From the NCBI GenBank assembly GCA_013151335.1, contig JAADIJ010000009.1, forward strand, positions 1 through 35,195: a DNA stretch of 35,195 nt, written 5' to 3'. The stretch comes from Alphaproteobacteria bacterium (lineage in GTDB: Bacteria > Pseudomonadota > Alphaproteobacteria > Rhodobacterales > Rhodobacteraceae). Below are positions 17,126 through 24,835 of this stretch, piece after piece; the stretch's first letter is position 1, and each line of letters starts with the position of its first letter. The notes beneath the pieces were generated by a model. That model searched no databases. It was not told the DNA's origin and worked only from the letters and a program-made list of their open reading frames with translations. A program made the position numbers and the translations under genes.

Positions 17126-19203
17126 TGGTCACCGACATCGTCCTTGACCCGCTGTTGCCGCTCTGGAGCATCGCCGCGTTTGCCGCCCTCACGACCGCGT
17201 TGCTTGCGCTGGCGATCTGGCGCGGGCTGGCCGGTTGGGCCTTGCGCGCAGGCGCCGCGCTGGTCTTGCTATTCGCCCTCGCCAACCCCGCTTTCAGGCA
17301 AGAAAACCGCACACCTCTGGCCGATATCGTGCTGTTGGTGATTGACCGGTCCTCCAGCCAAAAAATCGCCGACAGACCAGCGCAAATCGCCGATGCGCGC
17401 GCGAAAATAGAGGCCAAGCTTGGCGCGATCAGCAACCTCAAGATCAAGACCATCGTGGTTAAAGACGCCCCCGTCGGCACCGACGCAGGCACGCTTTTGA
17501 TGACCGCGCTCAGCGATACCACCGCCGAAATCCCGCGCGCGCGCCTAGCTGGTGCGATCCTTATCACCGACGGTCAGGTGCATGACATGACGCTGGCTCC
17601 CGATTTTCCCGCCCCGGTCCAGACCTTGCTGACCGGCAAAAAAACCGACTGGGATCGCCGTCTGAAGATCATCAACGCCCCCGCTTTTGCCATCATGGGC
17701 GAGAGCGTCACCCTGAAACTGATGGTCGAGGATCAGGGCAATATTCCCGCCTCGCTCCCGCAAACCAGCATGTTGACAATCGCCATTGACGGAGGCGCGC
17801 GGCAGACGTTCAACGTCGAAGTTGGCCAAGAGCTGACGCTGCCGATCAAGCTCGCGCATGGTGGGCAGAACGTTTTGCAGTTCAAAATTCCGACGATCAA
17901 AGGCGAGCTGACCGCGCGCAACAACGCCGCCGTGGTCACGATCAACGGCGTGCGCGACCGCCTTCGCGTGCTGCTGGTATCGGGCGAACCTCACGCGGGC
18001 GAGCGCACTTGGCGCAATCTTTTGAAATCCGACAGCTCGGTCGATCTGGTGCATTTCACCATTTTGCGCCCGCCCGGCAAGCAAGACGGGGTGCCGGTAT
18101 CAGAGCTCTCCTTGATCGCTTTTCCCACGCGAGAGCTGTTTTTGGACAAGATCGACCAGTTCGATCTGATCATCTTTGACCGCTATCGTCGGCGCGGAAT
18201 TCTGCCCTCGATCTATCTGGATAACGTGGCGCGCTATGTCGAGGGTGGCGGCGCGGTGCTGGTCGCCGCCGGTCCCGCCTTTGCCGGTGCCGAAAGCCTT
18301 TATCGCTCGCCGCTCGCGCGCATCCTGCCCGCCAGCCCGACGGCGGGGATGTTTGAGACCGGCTTTGTGCCCAAAATCTCCAAGTTGGGCGAGCGTCATC
18401 CCGTCACCGCCGGTCTTGAAAACTTCGCGCCGCGCCCGCGTGCCAAGAACGGCGATCCCGGTTGGGGCCGCTGGTTTCGCATGGTGGATTTGGACAAACG
18501 CTCGGGCGATACGGTGATGACCGGTCCCAAGGGGCGACCGCTTTTGATACTGGATCGGGTCGGCAAGGGCCGCGTCGCGCTGCTGGCCTCTGATCAGGCG
18601 TGGCTTTGGAGCCGTGGCTTTGAAGGTGGGGGCCCGCAGCTCGAACTTTTGCGCCGTCTGGCCCATTGGATGATGAAAGAGCCGGAGTTGGAGGAGGAGT
18701 CCCTCAGCGCCTCGGCAAAAGGTCGTGACGTCACCGTCATTCGCCGTTCTTTGCGCGAGAAGGCCCGTATTCTGAGCGTCACAAACCCCGATGGCAAGGT
18801 CACCAAGCAGCCTCTGAACGAGGTCGCGCCCGGCCGGTATGTGGCCAAATTCACCGGCGATCAGGACGGGCTTTATCGTCTGCGCGAGGGCAAGAAAACC
18901 GCAGTGATCGCGCTCGGCCCTGCCGCACCGAAAGAGTTCGAGAACGCGATTTCAACTGGCAATCTGCTAGCCCCGCTGGCGCGCGCAACCCGTGGCGGGG
19001 TGCTTCGTCTCGCCGCTGGGGTGCCCGATATCCGTTTTGTGCGCGAGGGTCGAGTTGCAGCCGGACGCGGCTGGATCGGCCTCACGCGCCGCAACGCCTA
19101 TGTAACCACGGATATTCGCCTGCGCCCTATCGGCTCGGAGTTGATTTTTCTGCTGCTGGCGGCGTTTACCATGCTAGGCGCGTGGTGGCGCGAGGGTCGA
19201 TAG
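17125..19203 (+). CDS. Membrane GATase/VWA-like protein of moxR operon
   Basis: A 692-residue protein with two N-terminal spans (about 12-32 and 37-55) and one C-terminal span (about 671-688). Between them lies a VWA-like stretch (DIVLLVIDRSSSQKIADRP, 67-85), then a Rossmann/GATase-like segment (IRDRLRVLLVSGEPHAGERTW at about 275-295; YVEGGGAVLVAAGPAFAG near 372-389). This domain set is typical of the last gene in alphaproteobacterial moxR-DUF58-DUF4159 operons. The GATase catalytic Cys is not evident, so an enzymatic role is doubtful. It starts on the final base of the DUF4159 stop. Most of it should face the periplasm. Confidence 0.82.
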   Translation: MVTDIVLDPLLPLWSIAAFAALTTALLALAIWRGLAGWALRAGAALVLLFALANPAFRQENRTPLADIVLLVIDRSSSQKIADRPAQIADARAKIEAKLGAISNLKIKTIVVKDAPVGTDAGTLLMTALSDTTAEIPRARLAGAILITDGQVHDMTLAPDFPAPVQTLLTGKKTDWDRRLKIINAPAFAIMGESVTLKLMVEDQGNIPASLPQTSMLTIAIDGGARQTFNVEVGQELTLPIKLAHGGQNVLQFKIPTIKGELTARNNAAVVTINGVRDRLRVLLVSGEPHAGERTWRNLLKSDSSVDLVHFTILRPPGKQDGVPVSELSLIAFPTRELFLDKIDQFDLIIFDRYRRRGILPSIYLDNVARYVEGGGAVLVAAGPAFAGAESLYRSPLARILPASPTAGMFETGFVPKISKLGERHPVTAGLENFAPRPRAKNGDPGWGRWFRMVDLDKRSGDTVMTGPKGRPLLILDRVGKGRVALLASDQAWLWSRGFEGGGPQLELLRRLAHWMMKEPELEEESLSASAKGRDVTVIRRSLREKARILSVTNPDGKVTKQPLNEVAPGRYVAKFTGDQDGLYRLREGKKTAVIALGPAAPKEFENAISTGNLLAPLARATRGGVLRLAAGVPDIRFVREGRVAAGRGWIGLTRRNAYVTTDIRLRPIGSELIFLLLAAFTMLGAWWREGR

Positions 19204-23342: not shown

Positions 23343-24101
23343 ATGCGCAAATTCATATTGCTGCTGTTGGTTCTGTGGGCGACCGCGGACCGCGCGCATG
23401 CAAACGAAAAGCTCGGCATGACTGCCGCCAGGCAAACGCAGGCATGGGAGGCCGTGGGTCGTCTCAATCTGATCGGAACCGGGTTTTGCACCGGCGCGCT
23501 AATCGCCCCAAATCTGGTGCTGACGGCGGCGCATTGCATGTTTGACAAGCGCACAGGCAAGCGGGTCGAGCTCAAAAATATCGAGTTTCTGGCCGGTTTT
23601 CGCGATGGTCGCGCGGCGGCAACACGCACGGCCCGGCGCGTGGTTCTCAACAAAAACTATCGCTATAATAATAAACGCCGACTTGAACGGGTCGCCACCG
23701 ACATCGCGCTGATCGAGCTTGACACCCCAATAAAAAACGCGCGCATCATCCCGTTTGGCTGGGCGAAACGCCCGAAAGTTGGCCAGACGGTCGAGGTTGT
23801 CAGCTATGCCACCGATCACCCCAACGCACCGACCTTGCAAGAAACCTGCCGCGTGCTTGGCCGCGATCCCGCCGTACTGGTCTTGTCCTGTCAGGTCAAT
23901 TTCGGGGCCTCGGGTTCGCCGATTTTCGTGATCGAAAACGGGGTGGCGCGCATAACGTCGGTGGTCTCGGCCAAGGCGGAATGGAATCGCAAAAAAGTCG
24001 CTCTTGGTGCCGGTCTTGGCCGTCCGTTGCAGGACCTCATTGGCCAGATCTCGAGCCTTAGCGCGGGGATCACCAGCATTCAATCTTTGGCGTCTCAATA
24101 G
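23343..24101 (+). CDS. Exported trypsin-like serine protease
   Basis: A 252-residue protein with a signal peptide (MRKFILLLLVLWATADRAHA, cleavage probably after A20). The S1 peptidase triad is complete: H64 in LTAAHC, D120 in ATDIALIEL and S190 in NFGASGSP. The GASGSP form of the serine motif is typical of bacterial trypsin-like proteases. No transmembrane anchor or PDZ domain is seen, so it is probably a soluble periplasmic or secreted enzyme. A GAGGGAAA precedes the ATG. It stands alone between glcF and hsp20; its substrate is unknown. Confidence 0.9.
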   Translation: MRKFILLLLVLWATADRAHANEKLGMTAARQTQAWEAVGRLNLIGTGFCTGALIAPNLVLTAAHCMFDKRTGKRVELKNIEFLAGFRDGRAAATRTARRVVLNKNYRYNNKRRLERVATDIALIELDTPIKNARIIPFGWAKRPKVGQTVEVVSYATDHPNAPTLQETCRVLGRDPAVLVLSCQVNFGASGSPIFVIENGVARITSVVSAKAEWNRKKVALGAGLGRPLQDLIGQISSLSAGITSIQSLASQ

Positions 24102-24168
24102 CAAAGTTCACCTGCCGCAACGAGCTAACCACTTGACATAAAGTGATAAAAAAATCGCGATCGTCCCT

Positions 24169-24197
24169 CTTGAAGCGCGACACATGTTTTCCCATAT
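24169..24197 (+). promoter_or_regulatory. Sigma-32 (RpoH)-type heat-shock promoter
   Basis: CTTGAA at 24169-24174 and CCCATAT at 24191-24197 (TCCCATAT from 24190), spaced 15-16 bases, closely match the RpoH consensus CTTGAA / CCCCATnT. Transcription would begin near 24204, giving a leader of about 97 bases ahead of hsp20. No other standard promoter is as good in 24102-24300. Confidence 0.75.
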
Positions 24198-24203
24198 CTG
24201 TTT

Positions 24204-24300
24204 TACCGGATGCCTAGTCAGGGTTCGGCAGACATGAAACAGATGGCCCGTCCCGTCGGGAGGGCCAACAAAATGTATCGCTCAAAAGGAGGATGCCGCT
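24204..24300 (+). ncRNA. ROSE-like RNA thermometer in hsp20 leader
   Basis: The leader ends in a hairpin-like arrangement UCGCU (24278-24282), loop CAAA, AGGAGG (24287-24292), matching the ROSE element hallmark in which UYGCU pairs imperfectly with the Shine-Dalgarno. Further upstream is a strong stem GGCCC (24245-24249) with GGGCC (24262-24266), with an internal CCC/GGG pairing, and a weaker TGCC (24211-24214) / GGCA (24227-24230). Multi-hairpin leaders of about this size are what ROSE elements look like. Heat would melt the last hairpin and open the ribosome site. Confidence 0.6.
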
Positions 24301-24780
24301 ATGCGCAACTTTGATTTTACACCCCTTTACCGCTCCACCGTCGGCTTTGACCACTTCGCCGACCTGATCGACCGGGCTTTTTCCGGCGACGTGGCGCAGA
24401 ACACCTATCCGCCGTTCAATATCGAAAAAACCGCCGATGATGCCTACCGGATTTCCATCGCTGTTGCCGGTTTTTCCGAGGATGATTTGGCGATTGAGGT
24501 CCGCGAAAACCTGTTGCTGATTTCCGCGCGTAAATCAACCGAAACGCCGGATGACGGGCGCGCCTATTTGCATCGCGGCATCGCCGAACGCTCGTTTGAA
24601 AAGCGGTTCCAGTTGGCCGATCATGTGTTGGTAACTGGCGCTACCGTTGAAAACGGGATGCTCAATGTGGACCTCGTGCGCGAAGTTCCAGAGGCGCTGC
24701 GTCCGCGCCGAATTGAGATCACAAGTAACAAAACCATCAGCGCGAAACCTGCCAAAAAGCAGGTCTCAAAAGCTGCATAA
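24301..24780 (+). CDS. Small heat-shock protein Hsp20 (IbpA-like)
   Basis: A 159-residue alpha-crystallin-family holdase that keeps unfolding proteins soluble. The crystallin domain spans about 38-135: PPFNIEKTADDAYRISIAVAGF at 38-59, then LLLISARKS and the VENGMLNVDLVREVP pair. A C-terminal IEI motif (in RRIEIT), which docks into neighbouring subunits, is present, followed by a Lys-rich tail. AGGAGG is 8 bases before the ATG. The sigma-32-type promoter and ROSE-like leader predict strong heat induction at two levels. A good terminator follows. Confidence 0.95.
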   Translation: MRNFDFTPLYRSTVGFDHFADLIDRAFSGDVAQNTYPPFNIEKTADDAYRISIAVAGFSEDDLAIEVRENLLLISARKSTETPDDGRAYLHRGIAERSFEKRFQLADHVLVTGATVENGMLNVDLVREVPEALRPRRIEITSNKTISAKPAKKQVSKAA

Positions 24781-24805: not shown

Positions 24806-24835
24806 AAGCCCGGATCATCTGGTCCGGGCTTTTTT
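24806..24835 (+). terminator. Rho-independent terminator of hsp20
   Basis: AAGCCCGGA (24806-24814) pairs perfectly with TCCGGGCTT (24823-24831) around the 8-base loop TCATCTGG, followed by a run of T to 24835. It lies 26 bases after the hsp20 stop and just before the end of convergent gabD. Confidence 0.9.

Follow-up and report, generated by a model that had tools for sequence, protein, structure and literature searches.

A probable ROSE-type RNA thermometer in the leader of an hsp20 gene with an RpoH-type promoter in a Rhodobacteraceae bacterium

The locus described here lies in a stretch of 35,195 nucleotides (contig JAADIJ010000009.1, assembly GCA_013151335.1, from an alphaproteobacterium of the family Rhodobacteraceae), which as a whole is referred to as the window. 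On its forward strand, positions 24301..24780 encode an IbpA-like small heat shock protein, Hsp20, of 159 aa with the ATG at 24301. The assignment is based on the PF00011 profile (63.5 bits) and on identity with E. coli IbpA, which is 48% across 141 columns. A leader of about 95 nt lies between the hsp20 promoter and the gene. Upstream, a gene for a trypsin-like serine protease (PF00089, 23343-24101) ends 67 nt before the -35 element, and an inverted repeat, CACTTgacataAAGTG, is located at 24130-24145, 5' of the promoter. Downstream, an inverted repeat rich in G+C, with a T run after it (24806-24835), separates hsp20 from a converging aldehyde dehydrogenase gene and is likely the hsp20 terminator.

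The host was placed in Rhodobacteraceae because most of its nearest records, which reach 79% protein identity, are MAGs with that label. Relatives of this Hsp20 are widespread. A protein search detected them in 51 of 61 genomes, and in 128 of 129 when one family genome was taken per genus. A full-length orthologue (E below 1e-45) is present in 122 of these 129 family genomes, and the other seven have a more distant match or none. The leaders of the 122 orthologues and eight leaders from the host's own genus form the set of 130 used in this study, from which one duplicate locus (L040) was removed. A search with the Rfam model RF00435 had already brought up nine of them (L033-L039, L041, L042), which are also present in the protein list.

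The promoter is of the RpoH (sigma32) type. On the forward strand, its -35 element, CTTGAA (24169..24174), and its -10 element, CCCATAT (24191..24197), are separated by a 16-nt spacer and match the consensus CTTGAA-N13-18-CCCATNT with zero mismatches across 24169-24197; the two boxes are exactly those read in an earlier note on this DNA. This arrangement is conserved above chance: with at most two mismatches in 12 scored positions, it is found in 124 of the 130 orthologues, compared with 2.65% of 2600 dinucleotide-shuffled leaders. In 22 of the 130, the window included, there is no mismatch at all. An rpoH gene (TIGR02392, 362 bits, above the cut-off) is present in the host, so heat should raise transcription from the hsp20 promoter, whose dependence on RpoH we infer. 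In 71 of the 94 leaders that could be scored (of 100), the -10 box is 8-9 nt away from the first stem of the leader. Thus, transcription probably begins at the foot of this first hairpin, with a predicted start in the window at about 24204-24206.

The predicted fold of 24200-24312 consists of three forward-strand hairpins with one unpaired G in each 5' arm, a number within the range of two to four hairpins that characterizes ROSE thermometers. Hairpin I occupies 24206..24228 (bulged G at 24212) and hairpin II 24245..24266 (bulged G at 24250). The latter is what had been noted earlier as a strong upstream stem, and hairpin I is additional to it. In hairpin III (24275..24296, bulged G at 24280), the presumed thermosensing element, GUAUC(G)CUC is predicted to pair with GAGGAUGC, which contains most of the Shine-Dalgarno (SD) sequence AGGAGG (24287..24292, forward strand). 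All but the first two bases of the SD are paired in this fold. The 3' part of the leader, directly before the Hsp20 gene, reads UCGCUC-AAAA-GGAGG (UCGCUCAAAAGGAGG, 24278-24292), and the earlier reading of this end as UCGCU-CAAA-AGGAGG is therefore correct. UCGCU at 24278-24282 pairs imperfectly with the SD, and G24280 is bulged opposite to it. UYGCU and, 3' of it, an SD core lie no more than 45 nt from the start in 129 of the 130 orthologues (the one miss is L070) and in 32 of 2600 shuffles. For a leader of this composition the folding energy is ordinary (z -1.42), and 21 of 200 shuffles fold equally well. Since folding energy alone is unremarkable, our case is built on conservation and covariation.

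We trained a covariance model, R1, on 30 orthologous leaders and kept the further 100 for testing. Its E-values are only rough, because the calibration was shortened. R1 matches all 100 test leaders, with scores from 17.6 to 77.5 bits, and the model start codon falls on ATG in 99 of them and on TTG in one. Two short matches also listed in this search were judged spurious. Since a MAFFT alignment misplaced parts of hairpin II and was rejected for pair counts, these were taken from a model-fitted and a sequence-only alignment. The model-fitted alignment, comprising 99 held-out leaders and the window, is shaped by the structure itself; in it 95.6% of the cells are paired, and 20 of the 23 pairs are changed on both sides (8/8 in hairpin I, 9/9 in hairpin II and 3/6 in hairpin III). 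None of 500 shuffles reaches any of five measures, and pairing falls to 45-61% when the partners are slid by 1-3 columns. The sequence-only model, on which the structure derived from the window was counted, matched 93 of 100 sources at E<=0.001 and lost seven. Here 87.5% of the cells are paired (shuffled mean 82.1), 15 pairs are doubly changed (shuffled 11.9), and the covariation score of 0.237 is above all shuffles (mean 0.158) and above the slid controls (at most 0.116). The covariation is carried by hairpins I and II, and hairpin III is almost invariant in sequence.

Conservation of the promoter and of the N-terminal coding sequence could in principle make the leaders look alike with no RNA structure involved. 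The start region, ATGCG, is indeed conserved in itself, and 9 of 500 shuffles have as many doubly changed pairs as the sequence-only alignment. However, such a chance resemblance is extremely improbable in view of the doubly changed pairs of the model-fitted alignment with its far lower slid controls, of the same proportion (20 of 23 pairs) in 27 loci outside the family, and of the ability of R1 to find hsp20 leaders without protein information. In the host genome, a whole-genome search of this kind gave one match at E<=1, the hsp20 leader of the window.

Across the 61 genomes, R1 gave 42 matches at E<=1e-3, of which 41 adjoin an hsp20 start. The exception (G039:C88; 27.7 bits, genome-wide E 2.5e-4) was taken as chance: it overlaps two ORFs, the following ORF with a length of 90 aa or more begins about 100 nt further on, and no Hsp20 is listed on the contig. 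Eleven matches are weaker (E 0.002 to 0.66); two adjoin a listed hsp20 gene and nine do not, and these nine, like the G039 match, count against the thermometer reading. Among the 37 family genomes, 33 have a match at E<=1e-3. Two of the other four (G005, G028) gave no orthologue in the protein search, and the leaders of the remaining two (G017, G026) reach 27.0 and 17.6 bits in a direct search. Five genomes with hsp20 and no whole-genome match (G043, G048, G049, G051, G052) likewise have leaders of 27.3 to 42.6 bits by direct search, and thus the whole-genome search loses true cases.

We extended the search to the class, scoring about 20 candidates per genome, and 74 of 190 genomes have a match at E<=0.1. 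At all 29 of the class-search loci examined, 27 of them outside the family, tblastn places an Hsp20 at the model start codon, within 6 nt. A further match, in G235, precedes an Hsp20-like ORF. Two other matches were set aside. A partial one in G223:C2 (21.0 bits, genome-wide E 0.016) falls within an ORF and has no Hsp20 after it, and a second match in the window itself (18474-18546, minus strand; 15.3 bits, E 0.009) is antisense within a 692-aa ORF and was taken as chance. R1 matched 68 of 73 named loci at E<=0.01, all except L236, L243, L256, L260 and L264. One locus, L244, comes from a record titled Actinobacteria bacterium 21-64-8 and has an Hsp20 with a ROSE leader like the sphingomonad ones; its label is possibly a binning or naming error.

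The earlier note had named an Rfam ROSE covariance score as its own check, and on this point the leader falls short. RF00435 (ROSE) aligns to it at full length and in register with the start codon, but scores 17.7 bits against a curated gathering cut-off of 45. This counts against a ROSE element, but the model is narrow: none of 100 family genomes reaches its cut-off, 29 having a match with E<=1, and none of 190 class genomes does, 26 having one with E<=0.1. RF01832 (ROSE_2, gathering 65 bits) has no match in the window at gathering, nor in 24000-24500 at E<=10. The whole window likewise has no match to Rfam at gathering, and no family reached its cut-off in the 40 leaders tried of 130 or in the 20 class loci tried of 27. 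A fluoride-riboswitch match at 24376-24453 (14.4 bits, gathering 34) is inside the hsp20 coding sequence and was taken as chance.

R1, by comparison, finds the whole of the E. coli K-12 ibpA leader, an established ROSE thermometer, with 43.9 bits (E 2.1e-11 for a search of 7001 bases), and the ibpB leader with 20.8 bits. Because R1 finds a single place in the host genome, Hsp20 starts in 29 of 29 cases and the E. coli ibpA leader, we conclude that the leader is a ROSE-type element by homology. Its anatomy agrees with this, yet it stands outside RF00435 and RF01832 as curated. Thus, the Rfam ROSE models fall below their cut-offs in the leaders tried, and one three-hairpin model reaches both the family and E. 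coli ibpA. These data also indicate that ROSE control of hsp20 is close to universal in Rhodobacteraceae. The combination of an RpoH-type promoter and a ROSE-type leader on hsp20, as first suggested in the earlier note, is supported by the R1 matches, the covariation, the conserved motifs, the homology to E. coli ibpA and the rpoH gene. We regard the leader element as real and as one of a known kind, and its function as very probable.

Each of the three hairpins keeps its bulged G. Of 100 leaders, 100 have it in hairpin I, 97 in hairpin II and 100 in hairpin III; the corresponding counts are 27, 25 and 27 in the 27 loci outside the family, which were chosen by R1 itself. In the 27 named non-Rhodobacteraceae leaders matched by R1, the bulged G is present in hairpin I of 26, in hairpin III of all 27, and in hairpin II of all 19 that have this hairpin; eight are without it. 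Two C-G pairs above the bulge in hairpins I and II are nearly fixed (94-98 of 100) and most other pairs vary, which argues that the bulge and the upper stem are kept together. In the parts of the published ROSE work available to us, no statement of a three-fold bulged G was found, which is a thin basis for its absence from print. We consider the keeping of one bulged G in each of three hairpins to be mildly new. What the 5' hairpins do in ROSE elements has been called not fully understood (PMC3669281), and their conserved bulged Gs point to bases worth testing.

We have high confidence that the 5' UTR of this RpoH-transcribed small heat shock gene contains a ROSE-type RNA thermometer, and the leader very likely masks the ribosome-binding site as long as the cell stays cool. 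In the mechanism we propose, heat would raise active RpoH and hsp20 mRNA would be made. At low temperature, hairpin III would hold the SD paired with GUAUC(G)CUC. Warming would open the bulged-G helix of this hairpin so that the 30S subunit can bind, and hairpins I and II would remain folded and aid the folding of the leader. Melting and translational induction are what we infer for the hsp20 leader. Calculations on isolated hairpins point in the same direction, in that the SD hairpin is predicted to be the least stable in 97 of 100 leaders. When the bulged G is left out of it, the predicted Tm goes up in 98 of 100 (mean from 73 to 90 C; window from 75 to 91 C). Removal of the corresponding G locks the P. 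aeruginosa ibpA element, with 1.4-fold induction left, and the P. putida one is locked by G removal only together with U38C (PMC3669281).

Alternatively, the folded leader might simply lower translation or stabilise the 5' end of the mRNA regardless of temperature, with all the heat control residing at the RpoH promoter. A transcript that probably starts at or beside hairpin I would suit this role, as would the ordinary folding energy and the result of nearest-neighbour folding, which predicts no release of the SD of the window leader up to 60 C. However, this calculation does not discriminate, since the isolated SD hairpin of E. coli ibpA looks equally stable (predicted Tm 79 C, against 75 C for the window; neither temperature can be taken at face value, both being too high). 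Given the homology to the E. coli ibpA leader, and UYGCU with the SD in all but one of the orthologous leaders, we find a temperature-blind leader improbable and favor the thermometer.

The leader could also be read by the chaperone itself. In E. coli, IbpA binds the 5' UTR of its own mRNA and thereby represses its translation, for which R93 is essential and Y34 and the charges at 97/98 also matter; R93 and Y34 are said to be conserved in alphaproteobacteria, where the authors suggested self-suppression as well (PMC10474464). The counterparts in the window Hsp20 are Y34, R93, K97 and R98. In an alignment of 70 relatives (of the 73 loci, three partial or remote ones were left out), R93 is R in all 70 and Y34 is Y in 69, with R or K at position 97 in 70 and at position 98 in 66. 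It is thus conceivable that the leader is mainly a binding site of Hsp20, with free chaperone repressing translation and letting go when engaged on aggregates, and with melting being secondary. The E. coli precedent together with the key residues found here favors this (PMC10474464), as does the retention of a bulged G in hairpins I and II, both of which leave the SD uncovered. However, the residues may be kept for other reasons, and in E. coli self-repression and the thermometer coexist. We hold this reading to be rather unlikely as the main role of the leader. Because both coexist in E. coli, self-repression would add to the thermometer and not replace it. With hairpins I and II retaining a bulged G although neither contacts the SD, chaperone feedback on the same leader as the thermometer may be a reasonable hypothesis. 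More speculatively, the bulged G of the three hairpins could be a repeated recognition motif for Hsp20, so that the leader would read both temperature and free chaperone on top of the RpoH control. Such a system might be ancestral to alpha- and gammaproteobacteria, and it would explain why the non-melting 5' hairpins are kept; we put it forward as a doubtful proposal.

Besides hsp20 of the window, the host carries another small heat shock gene (L001, contig C119). Its upstream region (L001:1273-1383) has an RpoH-like promoter, CTTGAG-N16-CCCATAT, and its leader has GUC(G)CUU...AAGGGC before the start. Neither Rfam nor R1 matches this leader, and the expected SD hairpin is absent from its minimum-energy fold. 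Nine paralogue leaders from other genera have little sequence between the first hairpin and the SD-motif hairpin; eight of them have GUC(G)CUU...AAGG(A/G)C and one has a paired variant, GUC(G)CUG...CAGGAC. R1 matched six of these nine, weakly (E 4e-5 to 0.84). We describe the L001 leader as ROSE-like by motif only.

Waldminghaus et al. 2005 have been credited with over 40 elements of the ROSE type in alpha- and gammaproteobacteria (PMC4166951). The doubt expressed earlier as to whether such elements are described in roseobacters is answered by a report of 2011 on ROSE-like motifs in the roseobacter Nautella sp. R11, upstream of its small heat shock genes ibpA and hspD (PMC3230580). Since these motifs were already published, we do not claim the element as new to roseobacters, and its novelty is small. 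Like the host, whose two small heat shock genes both have ROSE-like leaders, Nautella sp. R11 has two such genes, which are said to have ROSE-like motifs; the passage on them is one sentence, without structure or covariation, and the likeness is one of description (PMC3230580). The short ROSE element of Pseudomonas ibpA resembles the window leader in its SD hairpin with UYGCU, in the G opposite the SD and in its sigma32-type promoter, but it has two hairpins only and in that is nearer to the paralogue leaders described above (PMC3669281). The rhizobial ROSE element (RF00435; Bradyrhizobium hspA) aligns with the window leader over hairpin I with its bulged G, hairpin II and UUGCUC/GGAGGA, whereas its consensus hairpin II is a continuous helix without a bulged G. 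A further parallel is E. coli ibpA, whose leader is described in a review as a ROSE thermometer of three hairpins, the first two being stable from 20 to 50 C (PMC9450479). This leader scores 100.4 bits with RF01832, a model of 73 positions that covers only hairpins II and III, with the bulged G in both and hairpin I absent. The E. coli leader differs from that of the window in the sequence of its SD hairpin, CUCGCUGAUUUCAGGAG, but has the same three hairpins, a bulged G at the same place in each, an anti-SD of the UYGCU type and a small heat shock gene downstream. Thus, the E. coli ibpA and alphaproteobacterial leaders are indicated to share one three-hairpin plan.
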